Shown: one piece after another, positions 554-43,595 of the stretch
How positions within the stretch are numbered: position 1 is the stretch's first letter
Layout of the letters: every line of letters begins with the position of its first letter
DNA from: Thermobifida fusca NBRC 14071 = JCM 3263
Lineage (GTDB): Bacteria > Actinomycetota > Actinomycetes > Streptosporangiales > Streptosporangiaceae
DNA: 64,000 bases
Direction: 5' to 3'
Assembly (NCBI RefSeq): GCF_001592045.1
Contig: NZ_BCWB01000021.1
Coordinates: 1-64,000, forward strand
Program-made: the position numbers and the translations under genes
Notes under the pieces: model-generated
Seen by the model: the letters and a program-made list of their open reading frames with translations, nothing else
Database searches by the model: none
What the model was told of the DNA's origin: nothing

Positions 554-592
554 GGGGTTACTCCCTGGTGTGGGGTGGGCACAGTACCGTAT

Positions 593-606
593 TAGTTTGT
601 TTACTA
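593..606. promoter_or_regulatory. Candidate operator in the GH95/GH42 divergent promoter
   Basis: TAGTTTGTTTACTA is an imperfect inverted repeat (TAGT...ACTA) in the AT-rich 74-bp gap between the two start codons. It differs from both the CelR box and the CGAAANNTTTCG boxes found elsewhere in the window, so a separate regulator is implied. The match is short and only suggestive. Confidence 0.3.
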
Positions 607-627
607 GCCAAAATAAGGAGGGGTGGT

Positions 628-2619
628 ATGCCGAGTCCAGCGTCTCTGTGGTTCGGCGGCGACTACAACCCTGACCAGTGGCCGGAACCGGTCTGGGACG
701 AGGACATGCGGCTCATGCGGCAGGCCGGAGTCACCCTGGCCACGGTCGGCGTGTTCTCCTGGAGCCTGCTGGAACCCGAAGAAGACCGCTACACCTTCGA
801 CTGGCTGGACCGGGTCCTGGACCTGCTGCACGCCAACGGGATCAGTGCCTGCCTCGCCACCCCGACCGCGTCCCCGCCTCCGTGGTTCACCCTCGCCCAC
901 CCCGACGCTCTGCCGGTGACTGCCGACGGGGTGCGGCTGACCCACGGCAGCCGCGACACCTACGACGTGTGCGCCCCCGCCTACCGGGAGGCGTCTTTAC
1001 GCATCACCCGGGCGCTCGCGGAACGCTATGCCCACCACCCCGCGCTGGCGCTGTGGCATGTGCACAACGAGTACGGCACCCACACCTACGGGGAGCACGC
1101 TGCCCGCGCCTTCCGCACCTGGCTGCGCGGCCGCTACGGCAGCCTGGCCACGCTCAACGACGCGTGGACCACGGCGTTTTGGGGGCAGCGCTATTCGGAC
1201 TGGGAGCAGATCCACCCGCCGCGCGCCACCCAGTACCTGCCCAACCCGGCACACCTGTTGGACTTCCGCCGTTTCCTCTCCGACGCCATGCGCGGCCACT
1301 ACTGCGCCCAGCGCGACATCCTGCGGGCCGCCAACCCGGATGTCCCCGTCACCACCAACTTCGCGTTCGGCTCCTGGGTTCCGGTCGACCCGTGGCGGTG
1401 GGCTGCCGACCTGGATCTCGTAGCGGTTGACGTCTACCCGGACGCCACCGGGGAGGCTGCGGCCCACCAGCACGCGTTCGCCGCTGACCTGGCCCGCTCC
1501 TGGGGAGGGGGCCGGCCGTGGCTGCTCATGGAGCAGGCCACCGGCTATCTCGGGGCTCGGGTGCGGCCCAAAGCTCCCGGGGAGATCATCCGGCACAGTC
1601 TGAGCCACGTGGCCCGCGGCTCCCGGGGGGCGATGTTCTTCCAATGGCGGGCCTCCGTGGGCGGAGCCGAACAGTGGCATCCCGCGATGTTGCCGCACAC
1701 CGGCGCGGACTCCCCCGTCTTTGCGGAAGTGTGTGAGCTGGGAGCACTGTTGGGCCGCCTTGCGGAAGTCCAGGACACCCGGGTTGTGGAGGACGCGGCC
1801 GTGGTGTGGGATCCCGAGTCCTGGTGGGCGCTGCAGTCGCCGTCACTCCCCTCCCCCGACCTGGACTATCTCGCCGCAGTCCGGCAAGTGCACCGGGTGC
1901 TGTGGCGGCAGGGACGCACGGTCGCGTTCGTCTCCCCCCACTCCCCTATGCCGGATCTTCCCCTGCTCGTCGTGCCGCTGCTGTACTTGACCTCCGCGGC
2001 GACTGCGCGTTTCCTCGCCGACTATGCGGAGCAAGGCGGCATTCTCGTGGTCACCTACGGCAGTGGGACCGCAGACGAGCATGCGCGGGTGTGGCCTGGA
2101 GGCTACCCGGGGGCGCTCCGCGACCTGCTGGGAGTGCGTGCTCTGCAGCACTATCCGCTCGATCCGTCGGTCGACGCGGTCACGGTGTGCGGGGAGGACG
2201 GTGAATACTGGGGGCGGGCGCGCCGGTGGAGTGAAGAGCTCGACGTGGCCGACGCTAAGGTGGTAGCACGCTATGCGGACGGCCCGTTCGCGGGGCGTGC
2301 CGCGGTCACGCGGGTGGGGCGCGGCGCGGGACAGGCGTGGTACGTCTCCTGCGATCTGGAGGACGCTGGGTTGGGGAAGGTCCTGTCCCGCGCCGGCCTG
2401 TCCGGGGGCACCGCTACTCCCCCCGCGGTGGAAGTGGTACACCGGGATTCCCGGGACGAGCAGTGGGTGTTCGTGCTCAACCACGGCAACGGCCCGGTGA
2501 CAGGCGCCGACCTGGGGCTGGCTGTGGAGAGCCGCGAGGTGCTCTCCGGGGTTTCTGGAGCGGCGCTGGTCGTCCCCGCGGGAGGAGTGGCGGTGCTGCG
2601 GGGGCCGCGTCGGCCGTGA
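628..2619 (+). CDS. GH42 beta-galactosidase
   Basis: 663-residue glycoside hydrolase family 42 enzyme that hydrolyses terminal beta-D-galactosides. The start ATG at 628 is chosen because AAGGAGG lies 6 nt upstream; an upstream in-frame ATG at 568 has no ribosome site. The opening FGGDYNPDQWPEPVWDEDMRLM is the family hallmark. The acid/base Glu is about residue 148 in HVHNEYGTH, and the nucleophile Glu is about residue 302 in LLMEQATGYL. The C-terminal part holds the glutamine-amidotransferase-like trimerisation domain and a small beta domain. There is no signal peptide, so it is cytoplasmic. The divergent GH95 partner suggests removal of Fuc-Gal side chains from imported xyloglucan or arabinogalactan fragments; this is inference. 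A strong hairpin begins inside the last codons. Confidence 0.93.
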   Translation: MPSPASLWFGGDYNPDQWPEPVWDEDMRLMRQAGVTLATVGVFSWSLLEPEEDRYTFDWLDRVLDLLHANGISACLATPTASPPPWFTLAHPDALPVTADGVRLTHGSRDTYDVCAPAYREASLRITRALAERYAHHPALALWHVHNEYGTHTYGEHAARAFRTWLRGRYGSLATLNDAWTTAFWGQRYSDWEQIHPPRATQYLPNPAHLLDFRRFLSDAMRGHYCAQRDILRAANPDVPVTTNFAFGSWVPVDPWRWAADLDLVAVDVYPDATGEAAAHQHAFAADLARSWGGGRPWLLMEQATGYLGARVRPKAPGEIIRHSLSHVARGSRGAMFFQWRASVGGAEQWHPAMLPHTGADSPVFAEVCELGALLGRLAEVQDTRVVEDAAVVWDPESWWALQSPSLPSPDLDYLAAVRQVHRVLWRQGRTVAFVSPHSPMPDLPLLVVPLLYLTSAATARFLADYAEQGGILVVTYGSGTADEHARVWPGGYPGALRDLLGVRALQHYPLDPSVDAVTVCGEDGEYWGRARRWSEELDVADAKVVARYADGPFAGRAAVTRVGRGAGQAWYVSCDLEDAGLGKVLSRAGLSGGTATPPAVEVVHRDSRDEQWVFVLNHGNGPVTGADLGLAVESREVLSGVSGAALVVPAGGVAVLRGPRRP

Positions 2620-2655
2620 CCCGGAGGGGAAGGCCGCGGCCGACGCGGCTTTCTC
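2604..2655 (+). terminator. Intrinsic terminator of the GH42 gene
   Basis: A perfect 12-bp stem (GCCGCGTCGGCC at 2604-2615, complement at 2638-2649) is followed by TTTCTCG. It overlaps the GH42 stop codon. Confidence 0.65.
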
Positions 2656-2846
2656 GTATGGCCTTGGGAGGATGAAGGCCATGCGAGGGGTGGAGGACTG
2701 CCCTCACACCAGTGCGGCGAGGGGTCGGCGCGGCCGGGAGGAGGAAACCGCGCCGACCCTCACCTTCGTGCCCCGGCCGGGAGGGAAGCCGGGGTTTCTT
2801 GGCGGGGAGCACAGTGAGGGCTGGTCCGGGTTGCCGTCCGTGGGCC

Positions 2847-2988
2847 GCGTCGGCCGCGGCGAGCCACGGCCGACGCTCTCCCGTTCCCGGGAGGGGGACC
2901 GGGGGTGTGGGAGGGACCACGGACGGTCCGGCCCGGCACGCCACGAGTGGCGTGCCGGCCCCCGGCCTCAGGAGGGGGACTGAGGCCG
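2847..2988. repeat. Three successive hairpins between convergent GH42 and GH43 genes
   Basis: Three perfect stems occur in about 140 bp. GCGTCGGCCG pairs 2847-2856 with 2867-2876. CCGGCACGCCA pairs 2933-2943 with 2948-2958 around a CGAG tetraloop. CGGCCTCA pairs 2963-2970 with 2981-2988 and includes the GH43 stop codon. They probably stop convergent transcription. The remaining part of the 348-bp gap (2620-2967) shows no coding signal. Confidence 0.55.
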
Positions 2989-4620
2989 GTAGGTGCAGAA
3001 GTCGAAGTCGGCAGGGAGCCCTGCCCCGGTCATGTCGTGGGCCCACAGGCCGAGGAACGCCCCCGTGAAACCCCACATGATGGGGTCGTTGCCGAACCGT
3101 TCCTCGGCGTACTCGTCGGACAGGATGCTCATGTCCAGACGCACCCCCATGTCAGCCCACGTGCTGCCGTCGGAGGAGACGGCGAAGCGCAGGTCGTTCC
3201 GGTCGATTTCGGCGCGCAGGAAGACCTTCGGCCAGCCGGTGACGCTGATCCGCCGTCCCACTTCGCGGATGATGCCGCGGTCGCTGGTGAGCACGCCCGC
3301 GAACACGCCGCCCCGGTCGTCGCGGTTGATCCGCAGGTAGTGCCATTGGCGGGTGTTGTAGTAGGCGGTGATGCCTGCCATCTGCCGGAAGTCTTCCGGC
3401 TTGAACTCCAGGCAGGCTTCGAAGATGCAGGCGCGGTGCTGCAGTCGGCGTGCCACCAGGCTGGGCTCGTGCAGGCCAGCAGGCGACTGCCCGCCGCGGA
3501 TCCGCAGGTAGCCGGGCCGTTCGGTGAGGGAGACCCAGGAGGAGTCGAAAGGCCGGCGCAGCGTGCTCCACTCGGGCCGCGGCGTGGGGTCGTCGAAGTG
3601 GTCGGTCTCCGACGGCTGCGGCCACGGGTGCGGGGCCAGGCCGCGCGGTCCCGGCACTTCCAGCAGCGGTTCCGCGTTGCGGACGCGGGGCCACCCGTCT
3701 GAAGACCATTCGATCTTCTGCAACGCGGTCTCCCGACCGAGGACGCACCGGCCGCTGGGCGGCATCGGGCGTCCGGTCAGGTGCGCGAAATACCATTCGC
3801 CGTGCTGGGTTTCGACCATGCTCGCGTGCCCGGCCTTCTGCAGCGGCGCTTCGGGAACGTGCCGCGAGGTGAGGGCTGGCCCGGCCGGGTCGACCTCGTA
3901 GGGTCCGGTGACCGAGCGGGAGCGGGCCACGGTGACCTGGTGCTCCCACTGGGTGCCGCCTTCGGCGGTGACCAGGTAGTACCAGCCGTCGCGCTTGTAG
4001 ATGTGGGGCGCCTCGGTCACGCCGGCTTCGGTGCCGGTGAAGATGATCACCGGTTCACCGACGAGTTTCATGTCGCGCACCGAGAACTCTTGGGCGACGA
4101 TGCCACCGAACGCGTCCCGTCCCGGCCGCCAGTCCATGGAGGTGCTGAGCAGCCAGCTCCGTCCGTCGTCGTCGTGGAACAGCGACGGGTCGAAGCCGAG
4201 GGAGTGGAGCGGCACCGGGTCGGACCAGGGGCCGGTGATGTCGGGAGCGGTGGTGACGTAGTTGGGCGCGTCCCAGAAGTTGCCGCTGTAGCTTGCGACG
4301 TTCGTGAAGACGAGGAAGAACAGTCCGTCCCGGTAGGACAGGGCGGGTGCCCACACCCCTGCGCCGTCCCGCCGTCCAGCCAGGTCCAGCAGTCGAGTCT
4401 CGGTGAGTGCACCGCCCAGGGGGCGCCAGTGCACCAAGTCCCGGGAATGGTGCAGGGTCACTCCGGGATACCACTCGAATGTGGAGGTCGCCATGTAGTA
4501 GTCGTCGCCCACTCGCAGGATGGAAGGGTCGGGGTAGAAGCCGGTGAGTACCGGGTTGCGAATCGTGCCCGCCCTCGGTTCCTCACGAGACGGGGAGGAC
4601 GTGACTTGGGGAGACGTCAT
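2968..4620 (-). CDS. GH43 beta-xylosidase (family 43, C-terminal beta-sandwich type)
   Basis: 550-residue intracellular beta-xylosidase/alpha-arabinofuranosidase-type enzyme. The five-blade propeller spans about residues 20-330. The catalytic base is Asp31 in FYPDPSILRVGDDYY, the pKa-modulating Asp is Asp144 in LGFDPSLFHDDDG, and the general acid is Glu203 in VTEAPHIYKRDGWYYL. Residues about 350-545 form the C-terminal beta-sandwich typical of beta-xylosidases that release xylose from xylo-oligosaccharides. The start ATG at 4620 has AAAGG 6 nt upstream. No signal peptide. It is the last gene of the ABC-importer operon, 56 nt after the MalG-type permease, so it should hydrolyse the imported xylo-oligosaccharides. 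From memory it corresponds to the characterised T. fusca Xyl43; the identity is not checked here. Confidence 0.93.
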   Translation of the reverse strand: MTSPQVTSSPSREEPRAGTIRNPVLTGFYPDPSILRVGDDYYMATSTFEWYPGVTLHHSRDLVHWRPLGGALTETRLLDLAGRRDGAGVWAPALSYRDGLFFLVFTNVASYSGNFWDAPNYVTTAPDITGPWSDPVPLHSLGFDPSLFHDDDGRSWLLSTSMDWRPGRDAFGGIVAQEFSVRDMKLVGEPVIIFTGTEAGVTEAPHIYKRDGWYYLVTAEGGTQWEHQVTVARSRSVTGPYEVDPAGPALTSRHVPEAPLQKAGHASMVETQHGEWYFAHLTGRPMPPSGRCVLGRETALQKIEWSSDGWPRVRNAEPLLEVPGPRGLAPHPWPQPSETDHFDDPTPRPEWSTLRRPFDSSWVSLTERPGYLRIRGGQSPAGLHEPSLVARRLQHRACIFEACLEFKPEDFRQMAGITAYYNTRQWHYLRINRDDRGGVFAGVLTSDRGIIREVGRRISVTGWPKVFLRAEIDRNDLRFAVSSDGSTWADMGVRLDMSILSDEYAEERFGNDPIMWGFTGAFLGLWAHDMTGAGLPADFDFCTYRPQSPS

Positions 4621-4676
4621 GACTGCCTTTCTGGCTCGGGCCGGAGTCTCCGGCAGACGCGAGGGTCAGTGGTGGC

Positions 4677-5591
4677 TTATTTGCCGATGCCGGCGGCCAG
4701 ACCACTGAGCAGTTGTCTTCGACCGAACAGGTAGAGGGCCAGCACGGGGAGCGCCGACAGCACCACGGCCGCCATGAGGCCGGGGACGTCGGTGCCGTAC
4801 TGGGTCTGGAACTCCCACAGGCCCAGGGGGAGTACTCGGGTGTCCATGCTCTGGGTCAGCACGAGGGGGAACAGGAAGTTGTTCCAGGCGTTGAGACCCA
4901 CGAAGATCGTCACGGTGACCACCCCGGAGCGGGACAGGGGCAACACCAGGTTCCAGAAGATCTGGAAGTTGCTTGCACCGTCCAGGGACATGGCCTCGTA
5001 CAGCGAACTGGGGACATCCCGCAGCGAGCTGGTGAGGACGACGATGGACACGGGCAGCGCGAACGCGGCGGTCGGCAGGATGACCGCGGTGAGCGAGTCG
5101 TAGAGGTGCAGCCGGGTGATGAGCAGGTAGATCGGGATGATCACTGCCTGGGCGGGGACGGCGAGTCCCAGCAGGAACAGGGTGAACCCGATGCGGACCA
5201 CGCGGCTCTTGCTGCGCACGATGGCGAAAGCGGCAGGCAGGGCCACAGCGAGGACCAGGATGATCGCGCCGAACGCCACGATGAGGCTGTTGGTGAGGAA
5301 TTTAAGGAACCCCACCTCGAAGGCGCGCCGGTAGGCGTCGAGCGTGATCTCTTCGGGGATCGACAGTGGTCCAGCGCTGAGGTAGTCGCCGGAGCCGCGC
5401 AGGCTCGTAGCGATGAGGAAGTACAGCGGGACCACGACGAGGACCAGCCAGATGGCCGCGCCGATGCCGGCACCGTAGGCGGGACGGCTCACTCTCCTGC
5501 TGCCGGCGCGCGCCGCAGAGCGCTTGGCGGAGCGGGCAGGCGTGACCGATTCTGCCTGCTCTCCCGCGGGGCGGGCGGTGATGGTCGACAT
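4677..5591 (-). CDS. Sugar ABC transporter permease, MalG type
   Basis: 304-residue inner-membrane permease of the carbohydrate-uptake-1 family. After a 25-30 residue basic cytoplasmic tail come six hydrophobic segments. The EAA loop that docks the ATPase reads YEAMSLDGASNFQIFWNLVLP. The ATG at 5591 follows AAGGAG and lies 2 nt after the MalF-type stop, so the two are translated together. No ATPase gene is in the operon. As is usual for actinobacterial CUT1 importers, a shared MsiK-type ATPase encoded elsewhere probably energises it. Context (GH43, LacI) points to xylobiose or xylo-oligosaccharides. Confidence 0.92.
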   Translation of the reverse strand: MSTITARPAGEQAESVTPARSAKRSAARAGSRRVSRPAYGAGIGAAIWLVLVVVPLYFLIATSLRGSGDYLSAGPLSIPEEITLDAYRRAFEVGFLKFLTNSLIVAFGAIILVLAVALPAAFAIVRSKSRVVRIGFTLFLLGLAVPAQAVIIPIYLLITRLHLYDSLTAVILPTAAFALPVSIVVLTSSLRDVPSSLYEAMSLDGASNFQIFWNLVLPLSRSGVVTVTIFVGLNAWNNFLFPLVLTQSMDTRVLPLGLWEFQTQYGTDVPGLMAAVVLSALPVLALYLFGRRQLLSGLAAGIGK

Positions 5592-5593
5592 CG

Positions 5594-6484
5594 TCAGACT
5601 CCTTCTCGCTCGCTGGTCATCTGCGAGTAGCCGCTGACCCGCACCACCAGCAGCGACAATCCGGTACCGACCGCGACCAGCAGGACCGCGATGGCGCTGG
5701 CGTAGCCCATTTCGAAGGCGGAGAAGCCCTTGAGGTACATGTGCAGCGGCAGGATGCGGGTGGCTGTGCCGGGACCGCCTCCAGTCAGCAGCAGCACGGT
5801 CTCGAAGTAGGTCATGGACCCGACGATCATGAGCACTGAGGAGGCGATGATGGTGTGCCGCAGTTGCGGCACGGTGATGCGCCAGAAGCGCTGCAGCGGG
5901 CTGGCTCCGTCGATTTCGGCTGCCTCATACAGCGACGCGGGGATCTGCTTGGCGGCCGCCTGGTAGAGCAGCATGTGGAAGGGGAGGAACTGCCAGAGGA
6001 GGACGAACACGATCGCCCACAGCGCCAGGTCGGGGTCGCCCAGCACGTTGGCGCTCAGTCCGGTCAGTTCCGACCATTGGGCGGGGAGCCCGAAGGTGGG
6101 GTCCAGCAGGGCCTGCCAGATCAGCGCGATCGCAGCGGTGGACAGCAGCAGCGGGAGGAAGAAGATGGTGCTGACCACGGCGCGGATGCGCTGAGGGCCG
6201 GCTGCCCACGCCCCGAACGCCAGGGCGAGCGGGGTCTGGGTGGCCCAGGTCAGGACGGTCAGGGTCAGCGTGATCATCAGGCCGGAGCCGACGAGTTTGT
6301 CGGACGGCAGCGTCCGCCAGTTGTGCAGTCCGGCCCACTCGGGGTTGCCGAGCCCGTCCCACGTGGTGAAGCTGAGCCCCGCCACGATGACGATCGGGGC
6401 AAGTCCGAAGATCCCGAAGAAGATAAGGGCGGGAGCGGCCCAGAGGGCTCCGGGCCGCTGCACTCGGGTGGTAGCCGAGGTCAC
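5594..6484 (-). CDS. Sugar ABC transporter permease, MalF type
   Basis: 296-residue CUT1 permease with six predicted membrane segments and the EAA loop YEAAEIDGASPLQRFWRITVPQL near residue 190. It starts with GTG at 6484, overlapping the stop of the binding-protein gene by four bases (GTGA), so translation is coupled. It pairs with the MalG-type permease immediately downstream to form the transmembrane channel. Confidence 0.92.
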   Translation of the reverse strand: MTSATTRVQRPGALWAAPALIFFGIFGLAPIVIVAGLSFTTWDGLGNPEWAGLHNWRTLPSDKLVGSGLMITLTLTVLTWATQTPLALAFGAWAAGPQRIRAVVSTIFFLPLLLSTAAIALIWQALLDPTFGLPAQWSELTGLSANVLGDPDLALWAIVFVLLWQFLPFHMLLYQAAAKQIPASLYEAAEIDGASPLQRFWRITVPQLRHTIIASSVLMIVGSMTYFETVLLLTGGGPGTATRILPLHMYLKGFSAFEMGYASAIAVLLVAVGTGLSLLVVRVSGYSQMTSEREGV

Positions 6485-7785
6485 TGGGTGGCCTCCATGG
6501 CCTCAGCGAACTCTTCAGGAGTCATGTCACCCAGGAAGACCAACTGCAGGTTGGTCAGCATCGTCTCGGCCGCCGCCGGCGGGATCGCCTGGTCCCAGGA
6601 CTGGGTGAAGCTGGGCGCCTCGGCGACGAGCTGGTAGGTGAAGGTGGTGAACTCGGAGTGCTCGGTCTCGGCGAGCTTGTCTTCGATGCCGGCGACCGCG
6701 GGCACGTGGCCGATCTCGATGAGGTCCTCGACGTAGGCGTCGGAGGCCATGGTCTCGACGAGGAAGTCAATCGCCTCGTCCACGTTGTCGCTGTCCGAGT
6801 TCACGGAGAAGTAGTTGCTGGGGTTGCCGACGATCGCGGCGGGGTCACCCTTGCCGTCTTCCAGGGCGGGGAAGGCGATGAAGCCGAGGTTTCCGTCGGC
6901 CAGGAAGTCGGGGTTGTGCTCCTGCTGGTTGGAGATCTCCCAGGTACCCATCAGGTACATGGCACCCTTGCCGCTGGCGAGCACGGTGGAGGCGCTGCCG
7001 TTGTCGGAGGTGAGGGAGGAGAAGTTGTCACCGAAGGCGCCGCGCTCCACCAGGTCCTGGCACATTTCGAGGGCCTTGATGATGGCCGGGTCCTTCCAGG
7101 CGCCTTCCTTGCCTTCGGCGATGGCCTGGAACACTTCGGCACCGCCGATGCGGTCCGTGAGGTACTCCAGCCACATCAGCTCGGTCCACGCCTGGGCACC
7201 GGGCAGGACGATGGGGGTGATGCCTTCCTTCTTGAAGGTGTCGACCAGGTCGAGCAGCTCGCTGTAGGTGGTGGGCGGTTCGACGCCGACTTCCTTGAAG
7301 ACCTTCTTGTTGTAGAAGAGCACCACCGGCAGCACGCCCTGCATCGGAACGCCGTAGTAGCTGCCGTCGATCTTGGCCACGTCCAGGACGCTGGGCAGGA
7401 AGGCGTCGCGGAACTCGGGGTTGGCCTCCATCGCCTCGGTCAGGTCAACCACCTGGTTGGCCTTGACGTACTGGGCGAGGTTTCCACCACCCCAGTTGAA
7501 GAAGACGTCGGGAGACTCGGGCGAGCCGAGCGCCACCTGGATGCGCTGCTTGTAAGCGTCGTTGACGTAGGTGACGAGCTCGCCGTCGATTCCGGCGTTC
7601 TTGCTGTAGGTGTCGATGGCGCTCTGCACGACCTCGTTGACCGAGGCGTCCTCGACCATCCACACTTCGACTCCGGCCTTGTCGCTATCAGCGCCGGGTC
7701 CGGAGGTCCCGCACGCGGTCGTGAGGCCGAGCGCGAGCGCCGCCAGGGCGCTGCCGAGCATGTGGGTCCGGGTTATGCGTCTCAT
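6481..7785 (-). CDS. Sugar ABC transporter substrate-binding lipoprotein
   Basis: 434-residue family-1 extracellular solute-binding protein. A short signal peptide ends at lipobox LTTAC with Cys25, so it is anchored to the outer face of the membrane. The body has the usual hallmarks (VALGSPESPDVFFNWGGGN, YYGVPMQGVLPVVLFYNKKVF, and MYLMGTWEIS). It is the first gene of the importer operon, preceded by a 295-bp region shared with the divergent LacI gene. The operon order (binding protein, two permeases, beta-xylosidase, divergent regulator) is like bxlEFGA/bxlR of Streptomyces, known to take up xylobiose. Substrate assignment here is by that analogy. Confidence 0.92.
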   Translation of the reverse strand: MRRITRTHMLGSALAALALGLTTACGTSGPGADSDKAGVEVWMVEDASVNEVVQSAIDTYSKNAGIDGELVTYVNDAYKQRIQVALGSPESPDVFFNWGGGNLAQYVKANQVVDLTEAMEANPEFRDAFLPSVLDVAKIDGSYYGVPMQGVLPVVLFYNKKVFKEVGVEPPTTYSELLDLVDTFKKEGITPIVLPGAQAWTELMWLEYLTDRIGGAEVFQAIAEGKEGAWKDPAIIKALEMCQDLVERGAFGDNFSSLTSDNGSASTVLASGKGAMYLMGTWEISNQQEHNPDFLADGNLGFIAFPALEDGKGDPAAIVGNPSNYFSVNSDSDNVDEAIDFLVETMASDAYVEDLIEIGHVPAVAGIEDKLAETEHSEFTTFTYQLVAEAPSFTQSWDQAIPPAAAETMLTNLQLVFLGDMTPEEFAEAMEATQ

Positions 7786-7844
7786 GAACGGGACACCGTC
7801 CTCGGGTTAGTTTCAGGGGGATTTCGACGACAGCAGCCGAACTC

Positions 7845-7856
7845 CGAAATTTTTCG
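7845..7856. promoter_or_regulatory. Operator box CGAAANNTTTCG, importer side
   Basis: A perfect 12-bp inverted repeat with arms CGAAA/TTTCG and spacer TT, 60 bp upstream of the binding-protein start codon. An imperfect copy follows at about 7857-7868. The Streptomyces xylobiose regulator BxlR is reported to bind CGAA-N-TTCG, so the divergent LacI protein is the likely binder. Confidence 0.65.
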
Positions 7857-8009
7857 AGAGTTTTCGGGATAAAGACGCTAGGTGTGTCGAAAATCTCCGT
7901 CAACCCCCCAGACGTCTCATTCAGGTAACAGCACTCACATCCCTGAGAGAGCCCCCAGCTCAGACGAGTACGATCTGCTACAGAGAAGGACAAAGCTCCA
8001 CACTCCACC

Positions 8010-8035
8010 CCGAAAGATTTGTCGAAACCTTTCGG
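8010..8035. promoter_or_regulatory. Operator box CGAAANNTTTCG, lacI side, nested in a wider repeat
   Basis: The perfect box (8023-8034, spacer CC) lies about 46 bp upstream of the LacI start, suggesting autorepression. Its right arm also pairs with a second left arm CCGAAAG at 8010, giving two overlapping inverted repeats that share one half-site. Confidence 0.6.
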
Positions 8036-8080
8036 TCTAGGATGGTGGGGTAACCGCGTTCCACTGCCCTGAGGAGGCCC

Positions 8081-9094
8081 GTGTCCAGACGACGCCCCAC
8101 CCTGGCCGAGGTGGCCCGTCAGGCCGGTGTCTCGGTTTCGACCGTCTCCAAGGTGGTCAACGGCCATCTCGATGTGGCGGCCGAAACCCGACGCCACATT
8201 GAGCAACTTCTGGAGCAGCACCAGTACCGGCAGCGCCGCTCACCTGGCCGCCAAGCCGTGGGTCTTATCGACCTGGTCTTCCACGACCTGGATAACTCCT
8301 GGGCGATGCAGATCCTGGCCGGGGTGGAGCAGGCTGCCCACGAGCACGGTGTTGGCGTAGTGGTTTCCGCGGTGCGCAACGACAACGACCGTCCGGGGCG
8401 CCGTTGGCTGGACAATGTGCGCGCCCGGGGAACCGACGGCGTCGTGCTGGTGCTGTCGGAACTGTCGCCTGAGCAGCGGTCCCAGTTGAAAGCGCTGGGA
8501 GTTCCCGTGGCCGTGGTCGACCCGGTCGGTGACCTTTCCCACGAGGTCCCCGCGGTGGGCACTACGAACTGGGCTGGCGGCCTGGCCGCCACCCAGCATC
8601 TCATCGAACTGGGCCACACGCGTATCGCCACCATCAGCGGGCCCACACACATGTTGTGCAGCCGGGCCCGGGTGGACGGATACCGCAGTGCGCTTGACGC
8701 GGCAGGGTTGACCGTACCCGACGAGTACATCGGCTACGGCGACTTCACGATCCCCGGCGGGCACGCGGAGACCCACCGGTTGATGGAGCTCCCTGAACCG
8801 CCCACGGCGATCTTCGCCGGGTCCGACATGATGGCCCGGGGTGCCTACGAGGCCCTGTTCGAACGCGGCCTGCGGGTCCCGCAGGATGTGAGTGTGGTCG
8901 GTTTCGACGACCTTCCCGAAGCTGCCTGGGCGGCGCCGCCGCTGACCACGGTGCGTCAGCCGCTCAGTGAGATGGGACAGATGGCGGCCCGCACCCTGCT
9001 GCGCATGGTCGCCGGGGAAAAGCCTCACCCTCGCCGCGTGGAACTCGCTACCGAACTGGTGAAACGCGCGAGCACCGGTCCCCCGCCCAGTTAA
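8081..9094 (+). CDS. LacI-family transcriptional repressor, probable xylo-oligosaccharide regulator
   Basis: 337 residues. The N-terminal helix-turn-helix is LAEVARQAGVSVSTVSKVVN (about residues 7-26) with the hinge helix after it. The periplasmic-binding-protein-like sensor domain covers about 60-330. The C-terminal motif DVSVVGFDDLPEAAWAAPPLTTV is standard for the family. Starts at GTG 8081 with GAGGAGG just upstream (3-nt spacer, short). It is divergent from the importer/GH43 operon with two matching palindromes between them, so it most likely represses both directions until a xylan-derived sugar binds. It is distinct from CelR, whose box occurs elsewhere in the window. Confidence 0.92.
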   Translation: MSRRRPTLAEVARQAGVSVSTVSKVVNGHLDVAAETRRHIEQLLEQHQYRQRRSPGRQAVGLIDLVFHDLDNSWAMQILAGVEQAAHEHGVGVVVSAVRNDNDRPGRRWLDNVRARGTDGVVLVLSELSPEQRSQLKALGVPVAVVDPVGDLSHEVPAVGTTNWAGGLAATQHLIELGHTRIATISGPTHMLCSRARVDGYRSALDAAGLTVPDEYIGYGDFTIPGGHAETHRLMELPEPPTAIFAGSDMMARGAYEALFERGLRVPQDVSVVGFDDLPEAAWAAPPLTTVRQPLSEMGQMAARTLLRMVAGEKPHPRRVELATELVKRASTGPPPS

Positions 9095-16488: not shown

Positions 16489-19410
16489 TCAGCCGATGGA
16501 GCAGACCGCGCCGTTGACGGTGAACTTCTCAGGTTTGGTGTTCGAACCGCCCCAGGTTCCGTTGAAGCCGATGTTGACTGAGCCGCCCGGCGGAACTGAT
16601 CCGTTCCACGGCAAGGAGGTGGCGGTCACGTCACTGCCGCTCTGCTGCCAGTTGGCGCTCCAGCCGTGGCTGACAGTCTGTCCCGACGGGAAGGTGAAGC
16701 GCAGTTCCCAGGAGTCCCACGGGGTGCTGCCGGTGTTGGTCAGCGTCACCGAGGCGGTGAAGCCGCCCGGCCAGTCGTTGGTCTGGTACGTCACCGCGCA
16801 GGAGGCGCTGGGCGTGGGAGTCTCGTCCTCCTTCTCGGTGGTGAAGGTGACGGTGGCTGGCGTGGAGAGGTTGCCTGCCGCGTCGTAGGCGACCACCTGG
16901 ACGGTGTACTCCTGGTCCGCGCTCAGCCCGGTGAGCGTGTAGCTGGTCTGCGCGGTGGTGCCCACCTCTTCAGCGTCACCGTCGCGGACCAGGGAGACCT
17001 TGTAGCCGACCACTCCGACGTTGTCGGTGGAGGCGTCCCAGGTCAGGGTGGCGCTGGTCGCGGTGATGTCGCTGGCCTTCAGGTTCCCAGGCTTGCTCGG
17101 CGGGGTCTCGTCGTCGCCCGGTCCGGGCTCTTCTCCGCCGGGCTCGCCGGCGTCGTCCTGGTCGGCGATGAAGGACGCGATCCACGACAGGGGGGCGTTC
17201 CAGTTGATGGTCAGCTCGTTGGTGGACCACGACTCGATGTGGTCGATGTAGCACATCTGGGGGGCGCACCCGGTCAGCTTGGACTGGGCCACCGGGTCCC
17301 AGGTGGTGGAGTCGGAGTTGGGTCCACCGGCCAGCGTGCCCTTGGGCGGGTTGGGCAGCCGGGGGTCGAGCTGGTGGGCGTACCAGCGGCTGTGCTGGTT
17401 GCGGGAGTCCTTGTCGCCGTAGCCGGTGACGTAGGACTGGTTCAGCGCGTTGCGGCCGAAGATGTAGTCCATGCCTTCCAGCACGCCGTCGCGGTATTTG
17501 GTGTCACCGGTGAGGTCGAAGGCGACCGCCAGGATCACCATGTTGTTGAGGACAGCGCTGTTGGAGCCCCAGACGAACACACCGTTGTTCGGCTTGTAGG
17601 CCAGGCCCCACGGGCTGGTCTCGACGTTGGCGAGGTACATGTCGGCGGCATCGACCACGGACTGGCGCACCCGGTCGCGGTCGGCGAGGTCGTTGGGGAT
17701 CGTGGCCAGCTGGAGGCGGGCCAGCGCAGCAGTCCATCCCCAGTCGAAGGCGCCGTCGCGGAAGACCTCTTCGTCGTCGGTGTGCAGCGGCGACGAGGTC
17801 ACCGCGTCGCGGTACTCCTCCTTGCCGGTGGTGAGGAACAGTTCGGCCGCGGCCCAGTAGAACTCGTCGGTGACGTTGTTGTCGTTGTACGGGCCGCCGC
17901 CTTCACCGAAGGCAGGCGCGTAGATGTTCGGGTTGGCCTTGGCGGCGTCCCACGCGGTTTCCGCGGCAGCCAGGCACTCGGCGGCGAAATCCTCGTCGAA
18001 GGGTTCGAACACGCGAGCGCACTGGGCGGCGGTGGCGGCCAGGTTCAGCGTGGCCGCGGTGGACGGCGGCTGCAGGTAGCGCGGCTGCGGGTCAGCGGAG
18101 GGCAGCAGCGGCAGCCCGGTCCACTGTTCGTCGTGGATCTTGTGGTGCGCCATGCCGGCGAGCGGTTCGCCTTCGGGCACCTGCATCTTGAGGAGGAACT
18201 CCATCTCCCAGCGTGCTTCGTCGAGCACGTCGGGCACGCCGTTGCCGGTTTCGGGCAGGCGCAGGGTGGAGTCGGCCAGCTTGTCGGGCTGGGCGGTGTC
18301 GGCGAGCTGGGAGCGCTCGTAGATGCTCATGATCTGGTGCACCGAGATACCGCCGTTGACCACGTATTTGCCGTGGTCGCCCGCGTCGTACCAGCCGCCG
18401 GAGACGTCCAGGGAGTAGTCGCAGGTGCCGGGCGCGCACGGCACGTCGGTATCGCCCTGGTTGGGGGGCACGCCGATGTGGCCGGCCGGGCGTCCGTAGC
18501 CGGGGGCGATGGAGTCGAGGATCTCGATGCCGCTGCGCTGCGGGTAGTAGAACGACAGCGCGTCGACGCGCAGTTCCTCGTAGACGCTTTCGTCGATGTC
18601 GAAGGGGTAGCTGGTTTCACCGTCGACGGTGAGCGTGTAGTCGCTTCCCTTCGTGGTGTAGGAGCTGAAGTCGACGGTGTGGACGTTGAGCCCGGAGCTG
18701 GAGTCCGCGCCGTGCGGCTTGGTCTGGCCGCTGGCGACCACGTTACCGTCGGCGTCGGCAAGCTCCCAGGTGAGCGCGCTGGTGGCGTCGGTGACCACGG
18801 TCGCCTTCTTGGGACCGTGCGGGAGGTAGCCGACCTGGTTGACGCGGACCCGCGGTCCGGTGTCGGGTTCGTAGACCGGGGGTTCGGCGCCGCCGAGCAG
18901 GGCGACGTCGTCGAGGCAGAAGGTCCACGGTTCGTCGGAGCCGCCGATCTGGAAGGCGACTTGGGCGTCGTCCCAGTCGACGTTGGAGGTGAAGACGAAT
19001 TCGTAGGTTTCTGCCTCGGGGCCGAGCAGGGCACGCTCGTCCATCTGGGTGGTCCACGGCTCCACGGGCTCTTGCACCAGGGCGCGGATGGAGACGGGGA
19101 CGGTGCTGGAGGCAGTGAAGGAGAAGGCGTAGGACTCACCTTCGATGAGGGGGATGTCGTCCTGGCCGATGATCACGTCCCACGGGTTGACGGTGCCGCC
19201 GGGGACGTCGACGCACAGCATCCCGTCGGTGACGTTGAGTTGGATGTTCTCGGTTCCCCACCAGGGTGCGGTGCCGGAGCTGAAGTCGCCGTTGCGAATC
19301 TGGTTGACTTCGTCTGCCTGGGCGGGAACCGCCGTACCCCCGAGCGCGACTGCGCAAGTCGCCGCGGTGAGGGCGACAAGGGGGGATCGAGATCTGGGTC
19401 TCCTAAGCAC
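16489..19410 (-). CDS. cel9B: Secreted GH9 endoglucanase Cel9B (E1)
   Basis: 973-residue secreted cellulase. GTG at 19410 is chosen because GGAAGGA lies 5 nt upstream and a signal peptide (RRPRSRSPL, hydrophobic core, PAQA about residues 29-32) follows; longer frames would run through the operator. Domain order: CBM4 (about 36-185), Ig-like linker domain (about 195-285), GH9 catalytic domain (about 290-750), fibronectin III (about 765-855), and C-terminal CBM2 (about 873-973) with flanking cysteines. Catalytic residues are Asp342 and Asp345 in [12 protein letters not shown] and the acid Glu732 in [17 protein letters not shown] follows [14 protein letters not shown]. It cleaves internal beta-1,4 bonds of cellulose outside the cell. 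A perfect CelR box lies 60 bp upstream. The architecture fits T. fusca Cel9B. Confidence 0.95.
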
Positions 19411-19470
19411 GGAAGTCCTTCCGTAGGGGGATTCGAACTGGGAGGATGACCTCACAGCGGAGGCCCACCA

Positions 19471-19484
19471 TGGGAGCGCTCCCA
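19471..19484. promoter_or_regulatory. CelR operator upstream of cel9B
   Basis: TGGGAGCGCTCCCA is a perfect 14-bp palindrome, identical to the site bound by the LacI-family repressor CelR at T. fusca cellulase genes (established knowledge; cellobiose is the inducer). It lies 61 bp upstream of the cel9B start. No second copy was seen in this window. Confidence 0.93.
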
Positions 19485-19582
19485 TTTCATGTGACCTATG
19501 ACATAAAAACAGGATCACTCAGCGGTGTCAATAGGTTACGCTCGGATCAGGACTTTCCGGCTGCTCTTTCCTCCCGCAGAAC

Positions 19583-21102: not shown

Positions 21103-21135
21103 CATGCGAGCATGCACCAGCTACCAGGAGCGCTA

Positions 21136-22527
21136 GTGAGCAACGACCACCTCCCCGAGTTCCCGGCCGGATTCTGGTTCGGCGCGGCTACGGCCAGCTA
21201 CCAGATCGAGGGTGCGGTCCACGCGGACGGACGCGGCCCGTCCATCTGGGACACCTACAGCCACACACCGGGCCTGGTCCTCAACGGCGACACCGGCGAC
21301 GTGGCCTGCGACCACTACCACCGCTACCCCGAGGACGTGGAGCTCCTGCGCCGCCTGGGGGTGGACGCCTACCGCTTCTCCATCGCCTGGCCGCGCGTCA
21401 TGCCCACGGGATCAGGCGACGTCAACCAGCGCGGCCTGGACTTCTACGACCGTCTCGTCGATGCGCTGCTCGAAGCGGGGATCACCCCGGTGCCCACCCT
21501 CTACCACTGGGACCTGCCGCAGGCCCTGGAGGATGCCGGCGGCTGGCGTTCCCGCAGCACCGCGGAGCACTTCGCCGCCTACACCCGGGCGGTCGTTGCC
21601 CGTCTCGGCGACCGGATCCGCCACTGGATCACGCTCAACGAGCCGTTCTGCAGCGCTTTCCTGGGCTATGCCGTGGGCCGGCACGCCCCCGGGGCCCGGG
21701 AAGGCACGCCTGCGCTCGCCGCCGCGCACCACCTGCTCCTCGCCCACGGCCTGGCAGTGCAGGAACTGCGCGCTGCCGATGCGGGCGAGGTCGGCATCAC
21801 CCTCAACCCCGACCGGATCCTGCCCGCCTCCGACAGTGCGGCCGACCGCGCGGCTGCCGACCGCGCGGAAACCCTGCACAACCGGGTCTGGTTCGACCCG
21901 CTGTTCGCCGGCCGCTACCCCGCGAACGAAGCCGACGTGTGGGGAGAGCTCGCGGACGGCTCGTACCGGCGCGACGGCGACCTGGAGATCATCGGCCAGC
22001 CGCTGGACTTCCTCGGCATCAACTACTACCGGCCGCTCAAAGTCGCCGACGGCCCGCTGACCGAAGCCGACCCGGCACGCCGCACCGCCGTAGACATCCG
22101 CGCCCACCAGCAGCGTTTCGATGGAGTGCGGCACACAGCCATGGACTGGCCGGTCGTCCCCGAATCCTTCACGGACCTGCTGCTGGACCTCACGGAGCGC
22201 TACCCGAACCTTCCGCCCATCTACATCACAGAGAACGGCTCAGCCGAGCACGACGTCGTCTCCCCTGACGGACGGGTGCACGACACGGACCGCATCGCCT
22301 ATCTCAACGACCACCTGCATGCCCTGGCCGCGGCGATCCGCGCCGGGGTGGACGTGCGCGGCTACTTCGTCTGGTCGCTGCTCGACAACTTCGAGTGGGC
22401 GTTCGGATACGAGCGGCGTTTCGGCATCGTCCGGGTGGACTACGACACCTTGGAACGGCTTCCGAAGGACAGCTACTTCTGGTATCAGCGGCTCATCGAG
22501 CACCACCGCGCCCGCCACCGCGGCTGA
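21136..22527 (+). CDS. GH1 beta-glucosidase
   Basis: 463-residue cytoplasmic family-1 beta-glucosidase/beta-galactosidase-type enzyme. GTG 21136 is preferred because GGAG lies 6 nt upstream; the upstream ATG at 21112 lacks one. The N-terminal signature is FPAGFWFGAATASYQIEGA. The acid/base Glu is about 169 in TLNEPFCSAF. The nucleophile Glu is about 366 in YITENGSAEHD. The aglycone-side block is WSLLDNFEWAFGYERRFG. There is no signal peptide. It most likely splits cellobiose and short cello-oligosaccharides after import, completing the work begun by Cel9B, though GH1 enzymes are often promiscuous. Confidence 0.94.
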   Translation: MSNDHLPEFPAGFWFGAATASYQIEGAVHADGRGPSIWDTYSHTPGLVLNGDTGDVACDHYHRYPEDVELLRRLGVDAYRFSIAWPRVMPTGSGDVNQRGLDFYDRLVDALLEAGITPVPTLYHWDLPQALEDAGGWRSRSTAEHFAAYTRAVVARLGDRIRHWITLNEPFCSAFLGYAVGRHAPGAREGTPALAAAHHLLLAHGLAVQELRAADAGEVGITLNPDRILPASDSAADRAAADRAETLHNRVWFDPLFAGRYPANEADVWGELADGSYRRDGDLEIIGQPLDFLGINYYRPLKVADGPLTEADPARRTAVDIRAHQQRFDGVRHTAMDWPVVPESFTDLLLDLTERYPNLPPIYITENGSAEHDVVSPDGRVHDTDRIAYLNDHLHALAAAIRAGVDVRGYFVWSLLDNFEWAFGYERRFGIVRVDYDTLERLPKDSYFWYQRLIEHHRARHRG

Positions 22528-39138: not shown

Positions 39139-40776
39139 TCAGCAGACGTTGTAGCTGCTGTTGATCCGGGTGATGTTGCGGAAGGTGATGTTGATACCGC
39201 AGGGGTTCTCCCGGATACCGGTGTTGGTCACCGTGAGGTTCTGGATGGTGACGTTGGCGGTGTTGGGGAACTCCGACCGCGCAGCGATACGGATCTCCCC
39301 GGAGTCGCGCACCGTTCCGGACTGTCCGGCCACGGTGACGTTGTAGCAGTTCTCGATGAGGATGGCGTTGTTTCCGGTGTTGGCCAAGTCGATCCGGTCG
39401 ATGACCGCACCGCCGCTTTCGGAGACGCAGAAGACGCCGCGTCCGCCGCCGCGGGCCCGCACTTCACCCACGCGGATGTTGACGGGGTAGCTGTCGCCGA
39501 TCCGTCCGTTGCGGTTGGCCATGCGGAACGCCGCGTACCCGGTGCCGGTTCCCGCGTTCTCCGCGTCCACCAGGCCCACGTTCGCGTTGATGGTGTCGTT
39601 GAGCAGCAGTCCGGAGTAGGCGACGTTGCGTGCCACGACAGTGCCGATCGTGATGCCGTCCACGCCGTAGGTTTCCACGCCGTGATTCCCCGTGCCCGAC
39701 ACGTAGACGTGGTCGATGCTGACGTTGCGGGTGCGGACACTCCGGTTGTCATGGTTGTCGATGCGCATGCCCAAGCCGCCGGAGAGCCGCAGGTCCACCT
39801 GGCCGAAGTGGACGTTGGACGCGTTGCGCACAAAGATGCCGAAGTAGGGGTTGCCGGTGACGCTGATGTTGGGGACCTCAACGTCGTGGGCGTTGCGGAT
39901 CCGCACTGCCGCGTGGTTGGCTGACGGGCTGCCGGTCACGTTGATCGTGCCGCACACGTCCAGCACAGTGTAGCTGGGCAGGTCGAGCGAGCTTCCCGCG
40001 CTCATCGAACCGGAGCCGCGCACCACCACCCGCTCCTTGTGAGTGCGTCCGGGGGTGAGGCTGTTGACCGCTGCCCGCATCGCCTGGAGCATGTCGCTTC
40101 CGGTGTAGAGGGTGCTGCCGCCTTTGCGCGCGGTCCACGTGGTGCCGTTCTTCGTGACTTCGGCGTGGTAGGAGCCGCTACCGCAGGTGTCGGAGCCGCC
40201 GCCGTTGTCGGTGACTTTGATGAGCTGCCAGCGCTGGTTGGCGCCGTCGTGGTCGGTGTACTGGGAGATGCGGGCACCGTTGGCGGTGGACCATTCCCAG
40301 ACCTCCAGGGCTTTGCCGCTGTTGCGGTTGATCAGCCGGATGTCGCCGCCCGCGGAGTCGACGACCCGGAACTGCTGGTTGTACCCGCCGTGGTGGTCGT
40401 ACTGGCGGATTTCTGCGCCATCGGCGGTGGAGCGTTCCCACACGTCGACGGCTTTGCCGCTGTGCCGGTTGACCAGCGCATAGTAGCCGTCGCCGGCGGG
40501 GACGAACCGGAACTGCTGGTTGTACCCGCCCAGGTTGTCGTATTGGCGGATCTCGCCGCCGTTGGCGGTGGACCATTCCCACACGTCCATGGCTTTGCCG
40601 CTGTGCCGGTTGACCAGCACATAGTAGGCGCCGGTGTCGATCGTCGCTGCCATAGCCGGGCGGGCGACAACCGTGAGCAGCGCGGCGAGGAGCGCAACAA
40701 CGCCGCCGCAGGTCATCACGAGTCGCACCGATGAGGGCCATTCTCTCCGGTGGACTAGGGAGGGGGTGAGGGACAC
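39139..40776 (-). CDS. Secreted ricin-B-lectin plus parallel beta-helix protein, probable polysaccharide-active enzyme
   Basis: 545-residue exported protein. GTG 40776 is chosen for GGAGG 5 nt upstream. A signal peptide with hydrophobic core VVALLAALLTVV is followed by an AMA cleavage motif. Next comes a CBM13-type ricin lectin of three near-identical beta/gamma repeats, each with VNRHSGKA(M/V)DVWE...GGYNQQFRF (third copy LINRNSGKALEVWE). From about residue 195 there is a right-handed parallel beta-helix, seen as repeated INVTG / VRIRNAHDVEV / VFVRNASNV turns. It has Cys residues near the start (DTCGSGS) and the end (SSYNVC). Beta-helix proteins of this kind are pectin or other polysaccharide lyases or glycosidases. 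I cannot place it in a known family or name catalytic residues. Confidence 0.8.
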   Translation of the reverse strand: MSLTPSLVHRREWPSSVRLVMTCGGVVALLAALLTVVARPAMAATIDTGAYYVLVNRHSGKAMDVWEWSTANGGEIRQYDNLGGYNQQFRFVPAGDGYYALVNRHSGKAVDVWERSTADGAEIRQYDHHGGYNQQFRVVDSAGGDIRLINRNSGKALEVWEWSTANGARISQYTDHDGANQRWQLIKVTDNGGGSDTCGSGSYHAEVTKNGTTWTARKGGSTLYTGSDMLQAMRAAVNSLTPGRTHKERVVVRGSGSMSAGSSLDLPSYTVLDVCGTINVTGSPSANHAAVRIRNAHDVEVPNISVTGNPYFGIFVRNASNVHFGQVDLRLSGGLGMRIDNHDNRSVRTRNVSIDHVYVSGTGNHGVETYGVDGITIGTVVARNVAYSGLLLNDTINANVGLVDAENAGTGTGYAAFRMANRNGRIGDSYPVNIRVGEVRARGGGRGVFCVSESGGAVIDRIDLANTGNNAILIENCYNVTVAGQSGTVRDSGEIRIAARSEFPNTANVTIQNLTVTNTGIRENPCGINITFRNITRINSSYNVC

Positions 40777-41030
40777 GTGTACCTCCGTGGGGATCATGTC
40801 CGGCACTGCGCCGGACGGGAGGGGCCGCATGTGCGTCCCAAGTGACGCGCTCGCCGAAGCGAAAGCGTTGTCCGAATAGCTAAGGAAATATCACTGAGCG
40901 CGTCAATACCCCTACGTTCCGCAGCGGCGCCATTGTACCCCGGTGAGGCCCGCCCACCAGCGCAACCGGCGTTGCGGAAGCGATATGAAGAATGCGCCAG
41001 AGTGCACACCCCCATTCATAGAGTCATCCC

Positions 41031-43595
41031 ATGTCTGTTTCCGTCCCTCGTGTACGGCGGTGGCTGCTCGGCATCCTCGCCGCCGTCCTCGCTGTCGCTC
41101 TCATCACTGCTGGGCTCGCGGTCTGGACAGTGCGGCGTTCTTTCCCCCAGGTTTCCGGGGAACTGGAGCTTCCCGCGCTGAGTGCACCCGTCACCGTGTA
41201 CCGCGACGAGTACGGCATCACCCACCTGTATGCCGACACCCCGGAGGACCTGTTCACCGCCCAGGGCTATGTCCATGCCCAGGACCGCTTCTGGTCCATG
41301 GACTTCAACCGCCACGTCACCGCGGGACGTCTTGCCGAACTGTTCGGTGCCGACCAGGTCCCCACCGACGCCTACCTGCGCACCATGGGCTGGCGCCGCG
41401 TTGCCGAAGCCGAATACGACCTCCTGGCGGAGGAGACCCGGCGCTACCTGGACGCCTACGCCGAAGGCGTCAACGCCTACCTCGAGGGAAAATCCGCCAC
41501 CGAGGTGAGCTTGGAATACGCGGTGCTGGCGGCCACTAACAGCGAGTACGAGATTGAGCCGTGGAGCGCCGTCGACAGCCTGGCCTGGCTCAAAGCGATG
41601 GCGTGGGACCTTGCAGGCAACATGCACGACGAGATCGCCCGTGCCTCGCTGCTGGCTCGCGGCCTGCCCCGGGAACAGGTCGAGGAGCTCTACCCGGCCT
41701 ACCCGGAGGAGCAGCACGCCCCCATCCTCGCCGGCGGCCGGGTCCGCGACGGAAAGTTCGTCCTCGACTCCGACGAGGCGGAGCAGCGCGACGAGGACGC
41801 TGCCGACATCCCCGCCACCGCTGCGGTGCGCGCGCTGGCCGGGCTGCAGGAACCGCTGGAAGCGATCCCGCGCACTTTCGGTCCTGCCTCCTCCGACCTG
41901 GGCTCCAACTCTTGGGTGGTGTCCGGCGAGCACACTGCCTCAGGGCTGCCGCTGCTCGCCAACGACCCCCACTTGGGCGCGGTGATGCCGTCCATCTGGT
42001 ACCAGATGGGCTTGCACTGCACCACCGTCGACGAATCCTGTCCGTTCGACGTCACCGGGTTCACCTTTCCCGGCCTGACGGGGGTGGTCATCGGCGCGAA
42101 CGACACGATCGCCTGGGGGTTCACCAACCTCGGCCCCGACGTGATCGACCTGTACCTGGAGAAGCTCGACGGAGACTCCGCGATCGTCGACGGCGCCCCC
42201 GAACCGTTGGAGACCCGCACCGAGACCATTCGGGTTGCGGGCGGCGACGATGTCGAGATCACCGTCCGGTCGTCCCGCCACGGTCCGCTGCTGTCCGACC
42301 CGGAGCTCGGCGCGCAACTACGCACGTTCGCCGCCAAGGCGCCGGTCACTCCCGAAGGGGAGCCTGCCGAGACCGCCCAGGACGGCGACTATGCGGTCGC
42401 CATCAGTTGGACCGCGCTCACCCCGGGGCGGACCGCAGACGCGATCTTCCTACTCAACCGGGCCCGCACGTTCGACGAGTTCCGGGAGGCGGCGCGCACT
42501 TTCGAGGTTCCCGCCCAGAACCTCATTTACGCGGATACTTCCGGGAACATCGGCTACCAGGCCCCGGGGAAGATCCCGGTGCGGGGGAAGGGTGACGGCC
42601 GCTGGCCGGCACCGGGGTGGGACTCCGACTACGACTGGAAGGAGTATCTGCCTTTCGAGGAGCTGCCCACCGTCGTCAACCCTGATTCGGGGTTCATTGT
42701 CACCGCCAACCAGGCGGTGGTGGACTCCGGGTACCCGCACCTGCTCACCACGGACTGGGACTACGGCTACCGTTCCCAGCGGGTCGTCACGCTGCTGGAA
42801 GCTGCGATCGCAGACGGCGGCCTGACCGTCGAGGACATGGTGGACATCCAGTTGGACAACGAGAACAGCGGGGCGCGGGCCCTCGTCCCCTACTTGGTAG
42901 AAGTGGACGTGGAGGGGGCTGCCGCGCAGGCCCAGGAGCTGCTCGCCGGCTGGGACTTCCAGCAGGACGCTGACTCGGCTGCCGCGGCGTTCTACAACGC
43001 CACCTACCGCCACCTGCTGCCGCTGGTCTTCGACGAACTGGGCGCCAACCCGAAGATCGAGGCGTCACAGGCCTGGCTGCTCTTGACTTCCCTCGTGGAG
43101 TCTCCCGAATCCGAGTGGTGGCGCGGCGAGGAGGTCTCCAGCCGGGATGAAGCGCTGCGCGTGGCGATGGAGCGGGCCGCCGCGGAGCTGACTGAGCTGC
43201 TCGGCGAGGACGTGGCTGCCTGGCGGTGGGGTGACCTGCACACGCTCACCGTCCGCAACGCGTCCTTCGGGGAATCCGGTATCGCCGCGGTGGAGTGGTT
43301 GTTCAACCGGGGCCCGGTCGCGACGGGCGGGGGTTCCAGTGTCGTCAACGCCACCGGCTGGGACCCGGCCCAGGGGTACGAGGTCACCACGGTGCCGTCG
43401 ATGCGCATGGTGGTGGACTTGGCGGACGTGGACAACTCCCAGTGGATCAACCTGACCGGCAACTCGGGGCATGCGTTCCACCCCCACTATGCCGACCAGC
43501 TCGAGCTGTGGGCTGCGGGGACGATGCTTCCCATGCGGATGACCCGGAGCGCCGTGGAGGAGGCGGCTGAGCACACCCTCGTCTTGCGTCCCTGA
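41031..43595 (+). CDS. Penicillin acylase family Ntn-hydrolase
   Basis: 854-residue precursor of an N-terminal-nucleophile amidase. A basic N-terminus and one hydrophobic stretch (LLGILAAVLAVALITAGLAVW) give a signal anchor. The alpha part starts PVTVYRDEYGITHLYADTPEDLFTAQGYVHAQDRFWSMD, typical of the family. Self-cleavage should occur before Ser292 in DLGSNSWVV, freeing the Ser nucleophile of the beta chain. Later blocks include ANDPHLGAVMPSIWYQMG, GFTFPGLTGVVIGANDTIAWG and ASFGESGIAAVEWLFNRG. Such enzymes hydrolyse acyl-homoserine lactones, penicillins or lipopeptides; the substrate is unknown here. Isolated gene, divergent from the beta-helix protein. Confidence 0.92.
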   Translation: MSVSVPRVRRWLLGILAAVLAVALITAGLAVWTVRRSFPQVSGELELPALSAPVTVYRDEYGITHLYADTPEDLFTAQGYVHAQDRFWSMDFNRHVTAGRLAELFGADQVPTDAYLRTMGWRRVAEAEYDLLAEETRRYLDAYAEGVNAYLEGKSATEVSLEYAVLAATNSEYEIEPWSAVDSLAWLKAMAWDLAGNMHDEIARASLLARGLPREQVEELYPAYPEEQHAPILAGGRVRDGKFVLDSDEAEQRDEDAADIPATAAVRALAGLQEPLEAIPRTFGPASSDLGSNSWVVSGEHTASGLPLLANDPHLGAVMPSIWYQMGLHCTTVDESCPFDVTGFTFPGLTGVVIGANDTIAWGFTNLGPDVIDLYLEKLDGDSAIVDGAPEPLETRTETIRVAGGDDVEITVRSSRHGPLLSDPELGAQLRTFAAKAPVTPEGEPAETAQDGDYAVAISWTALTPGRTADAIFLLNRARTFDEFREAARTFEVPAQNLIYADTSGNIGYQAPGKIPVRGKGDGRWPAPGWDSDYDWKEYLPFEELPTVVNPDSGFIVTANQAVVDSGYPHLLTTDWDYGYRSQRVVTLLEAAIADGGLTVEDMVDIQLDNENSGARALVPYLVEVDVEGAAAQAQELLAGWDFQQDADSAAAAFYNATYRHLLPLVFDELGANPKIEASQAWLLLTSLVESPESEWWRGEEVSSRDEALRVAMERAAAELTELLGEDVAAWRWGDLHTLTVRNASFGESGIAAVEWLFNRGPVATGGGSSVVNATGWDPAQGYEVTTVPSMRMVVDLADVDNSQWINLTGNSGHAFHPHYADQLELWAAGTMLPMRMTRSAVEEAAEHTLVLRP

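Follow-up and report, generated by a model that had tools for sequence, protein, structure and literature searches.

A secreted modular protein encoded in the analysed window (64,000 nucleotides of the plant-degrading soil bacterium Thermobifida fusca NBRC 14071 = JCM 3263) may well be a lectin-targeted enzyme of an unnamed family acting on rhamnogalacturonan-I (RG-I) or pectin, perhaps as a backbone lyase, a composite reading that is put forward tentatively. That the protein is an enzyme rather than a binder is very likely, and RG-I/pectin is the probable target of its beta-helix family, with fair confidence placed in the substrate; a lyase is weakly favoured over a hydrolase, the choice between the two being essentially even. 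As the haloarchaeal relatives are located in RG-I digestion clusters, the family probably represents a kind of pectin-attacking enzyme yet to be characterised. Few plant polysaccharides match RG-I in complexity, and only a small number of enzyme families are known to attack its backbone. It is conceivable, with less confidence, that this unassigned CAZyme family cleaves the RG-I backbone at a beta-helix active site of a new Arg/Glu type. Alongside GH28 and PL9 it would then be a third beta-helix answer to RG-I, and one common to haloarchaea, actinobacteria, a myxobacterium and a pectinolytic spirochaete. Together, the candidate active site and the synteny with RG-I genes replace the label 'right-handed parallel beta-helix repeat-containing protein' with an enzyme hypothesis that can be tested, and the likely thermophilic T. 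fusca member would be useful for structure work and biomass processing.

The coding sequence, including the stop codon, occupies positions 39139..40776 on the minus strand and codes for 545 amino acids, the reading frame being open from a GTG at 40776 down to the stop at 39139-39141. A Shine-Dalgarno sequence, GGAGGT (40781..40786, minus strand), is read four bases upstream of the GTG, and the start, with its N-terminal VSLT, is retained in two congeneric genomes. On these grounds the GTG start and the coordinates given in the first-pass annotation are upheld, and are preferred over a longer ATG start at 40830. Secretion had also been proposed, and residues 1-43 (40648..40776, minus strand; ..TVVARPAMA/A), as read by eye, have the appearance of a Sec-type signal peptide ending in AMA. 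A CelR-like operator upstream of the gene was considered and discarded, the best match to the motif carrying five mismatches in 14 positions.

The N-terminal region of the protein, residues ~48-187 (40216..40635, minus strand), comprises a single beta-trefoil of the ricin-B/CBM13-like type with three repeats. Pfam matches are obtained for RicinB_lectin_2 (PF14200; 1.6e-34, 118.9 bits versus a cut-off of 25.6) and Ricin_B_lectin (PF00652; 1.8e-14, 54.4 bits versus a cut-off of 29), while the only NCBIfam matches of note for the whole protein are lectin models below threshold. The repeats share 77%, 50% and 47% identity (z = 15-20 versus shuffles), and their earlier description as near-identical fits the first two (77%) but not the other pairs. 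Similarly, the 'triple ricin lectin' does contain three ricin-type repeats, but these are the subdomains of one CBM13-type trefoil, ruling out three separate lectins. While the strong domain match and the three-repeat architecture liken this region to the CBM13/ricin-B trefoils, the QxW-like motif ('QRW') is kept here in the third repeat only. The ricin model matches 17 of 39 family members, indicating that the trefoil is optional, and in the haloarchaeal members it is located at the C-terminal side instead.

The C-terminal domain of ~350 amino acids (39142..40200, minus strand) is predicted to consist of successive PB1-PB2-PB3 coils of a right-handed parallel beta-helix, as had been supposed. 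Its AF2 model, built with 35 homologues, has a mean pLDDT of 95.7 and a pTM of 0.93 and includes about ten PB1 strands. The best PDB folds are generic beta-helices, among them AlgE epimerases, phage proteins, GH110, GH28, RbmB and PfbA, and a fold search against viral proteins gives generic tailspike-like beta-helices and no specific relative. The top PDB fold matches (E ~1e-4) are the AlgE mannuronan C5-epimerases (2pyh, 2pyg and 5lw3), but at 13-14% identity, a TM of ~0.5 and an rmsd of 8-10 A the likeness is at the fold level only, and the loci of the relatives found here are concerned with pectin, not alginate. Sequence searches of the PDB with the beta-helix domain or its profile gave only a chance match (E 0.53 and 0.18), and no Pfam or NCBIfam family is matched above cut-off by this domain. 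The right-handed beta-helix/pectin-lyase-like superfamily model PF13229 (Beta_helix), which shares the predicted fold but is generic rather than an enzyme family, scores 16.7 bits against the window protein, below its curated cut-off of 25.9, and its repeat is matched at E<0.01 by 28 of the 39 family members.

The pectate and RG lyases of PL1 and PL9 are beta-helix pectin lyases with the same kind of PB1 cleft, and the arrangement of acid and arginine residues in the T. fusca protein is no more than loosely comparable. However, the window protein has no match at E<=1 to the PL1 model PF00544, which does detect two PL1 genes elsewhere in the source genome (3.64 Mb in 82 contigs), library-wide Pfam and NCBIfam searches return no match to any lyase family, and there is no invariant lysine in an alignment of 19 homologues. 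The earlier remark that no pectate-lyase motif is recognisable is thus borne out, with neither PF00544 nor any other CAZyme model matching the C-terminal domain above cut-off. No characterised member of the family and no mention of the protein in a T. fusca secretome was found in the open literature. The suggestion of a new lyase or glycosidase family is strengthened by the absence of a curated family match, the invariant PB1 residues and the pectin/RG-I loci described below, and is to be taken provisionally, as the family appears new at the sequence level relative to Pfam, NCBIfam and the PDB, with the CAZy library outside that comparison.

A candidate active-site patch is located on PB1 coils 3-7 (39439..39765, minus strand), as delimited by conservation among the 19 homologues and placement on PB1. 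In domain numbering, where residue n corresponds to protein residue n+192, it consists of R146, E176, N201, Y222, R226, N229 and R254 (R338, E368, N393, Y414, R418, N421 and R446 of the protein). Six of these polar residues, R146, E176, Y222, R226, N229 and R254, are invariant in all 19 homologues, which represent four phyla, and N201 is kept in 18. All six invariant residues map to PB1 strands of consecutive coils in the AF2 model, using windows placed from the model strands with a width of eight residues chosen by us. Beta-helix pectinases carry their active site on PB1, and strand register suggests that the invariant side chains of the T. fusca protein point into one cleft. The abundance of arginines in the patch suggests a uronate or other acidic polymer as the substrate.

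The nature of these residues bears on whether the protein instead resembles the GH28 polygalacturonases and rhamnogalacturonases, beta-helix pectinases that occur among the fold matches (1bhe and 1rmg). An inverting RG-I/pectin hydrolase of this kind, in which E176 and D/E148 on adjacent coils serve as acid and base and the arginines bind uronates, is a possible but rather unlikely alternative. Position 148 is acidic in 17 of the 19 homologues, and two archaeal relatives score 19.9 and 18.7 bits against the GH28 model, below its cut-off of 22.9. The window protein itself, however, has no Pfam match to GH28 (PF00295), and the alignment offers no invariant acid pair, D/E148 being missing from the two most divergent homologues and E176 being the sole invariant acid. 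A non-catalytic carbohydrate-binding or adhesin-type beta-helix, comparable to PfbA, would agree with the presence of PfbA among the fold matches and with the lectin fusions in 17 of the 39 members. It is nonetheless a very improbable reading, as the strict retention of R, E, R, N and R on a single face in both bacteria and archaea appears to exceed what binding usually needs.

The scan of genome contigs identified 58 relatives (44-75% identity), nearly all of them actinobacterial apart from one myxobacterial MAG; the gene is carried by three of the four genomes of the genus and by 23 of 395 sampled genomes of the class. Plasmid records add relatives from haloarchaea and Treponema saccharophilum with about 30-46% identity. 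Ten archaeal loci were inspected, from Halomontanus, Halostagnicola (two), Halocatena, Haloterrigena (three), Halopiger and Natrinema (two), and in nine of these the beta-helix gene is found within a pectin/RG-I locus. Its neighbours include, in varying combinations, rhamnogalacturonan lyase (PL11), GH78, PL22/oligogalacturonate lyase, GDSL esterase, GH4, GH28 and L-rhamnonate dehydratase genes. Several Natrialbaceae share the order GH4, beta-helix gene, GDSL esterase, GH78, a paralogue combining RICIN and beta-helix domains, and PL22. As the hosts are related and the synteny is shared, the ten loci do not represent ten independent events. In T. saccharophilum the beta-helix gene likewise adjoins a GDSL esterase gene. 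A second RICIN-domain protein is encoded in three haloarchaeal RG-I loci (L071, 17259-19454; L080, 13234-15432; L081, 14150-16345), that of L071 being a paralogue in the same beta-helix family with 36% identity. An independent study of haloarchaeal genomes reports that Haloterrigena turkmenica has many pectin-degrading genes, including two for PL11 (Htur_3890 and Htur_3891) (PMC3102087). These are probably the two PL11 genes of L071.

The one exception among the archaeal loci, a divergent second copy in Halostagnicola, adjoins a GH115 gene, and some loci contain GH43, GH30, GH27, GH2 or GH42 genes in place of genes for backbone enzymes. These neighbours would fit an enzyme acting on the side chains of pectin or on a different wall polymer such as arabinogalactan or xylogalacturonan. 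Such an activity is considered improbable, given that synteny is best conserved with the enzymes of the RG-I backbone and that the arginine-rich patch would suit an acidic polymer. The substrates initially listed for screening (pectins, rhamnogalacturonan, arabinan and alginate) are narrowed by the evidence to pectin, and above all RG-I.

Among the actinobacterial copies, PL11-type genes flank the beta-helix gene on both sides in one locus, together with an RG-acetylesterase-like gene (L042), and another contains PL11 (positioned by Pfam), GH42-like and beta-helix genes (L077). PL11 is also found near the gene in L016 and L043, and PL1 in L006, L031, L041 and L057. Overall, PL11 or PL1 occurs within ~6 kb in seven of the 58 sampled loci, two of the seven being near-duplicates. 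The record titled Rhodococcus rhodnii closely resembles the Kibdelosporangium aridum locus (L057 and L041; PL1 neighbours 93% identical) and may be mislabelled. In two genera a secreted C39-like peptidase is encoded close to the beta-helix gene (L016, 1904-3157; L059, 3732-4979). No CAZyme is encoded beside the window gene, and most other actinobacterial copies likewise occur without PL11, RG-acetylesterase-like or PL1 genes. The window copy is surrounded by genes for an S4-domain-like protein, an aminotransferase-like protein and a penicillin amidase, the last at 41031-43592 and divergent from the beta-helix gene.

At the genome level, PL11 is present in 19 of 23 carriers and 37 of 372 non-carriers (p = 2e-14, kinship ignored). 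The xylanase family GH10 co-occurs at least as strongly (23/23 versus 74/372, kinship ignored), suggesting that a plant-degrading lifestyle and common descent account for part of the PL11 association. Within the GH10-positive genomes the association persists, PL11 being found in 19 of 23 carriers and 30 of 74 non-carriers (p = 6e-4, kinship ignored); as these tests disregard phylogeny, the PL11 co-occurrence is supportive only. The source genome encodes one PL11 and two PL1 enzymes. Enzymes of GH88/105 usually process lyase products, and a genome search found none in the source genome or in nearly all carriers, which weakens the case for a lyase and speaks for a GH28-like hydrolase, whose saturated oligosaccharides could be processed by the GH4 and GH78 enzymes encoded next to the archaeal relatives. 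GH88/105 is also rare in the PL11-carrying actinobacteria among the 395 class genomes, raising the question of the fate of unsaturated RG-I oligosaccharides in these organisms.

For a pectin-active enzyme with RG-I or closely linked pectin as its target, the CBM13-like trefoil would tether the protein to wall glycans while the acidic backbone lies in a cleft of the beta-helix along PB1, with the invariant R146, R226 and R254 binding galacturonate carboxylates. Cleavage would then be effected by E176 with R226, Y222 and N201, most likely through beta-elimination by a lyase; hydrolysis, for which E176 and D/E148 would supply the acid and the base, is the less likely chemistry. In T. fusca the protein may serve as a wall-loosening accessory to the PL11 enzyme and the two PL1 enzymes.

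Genes of CAZyme families are found elsewhere in the window. The region 2-9091 contains, by Pfam, a truncated GH65N-type hydrolase, a GH42 beta-galactosidase and a GH43 enzyme, and a sugar ABC transporter and a LacI regulator are read from the sequence of the same cluster. A GH9 cellulase with CBM4_9, CelD_N, fn3 and CBM2 domains is encoded at 16492-19518, and a GH1 beta-glucosidase is encoded nearby at 21112-22524.
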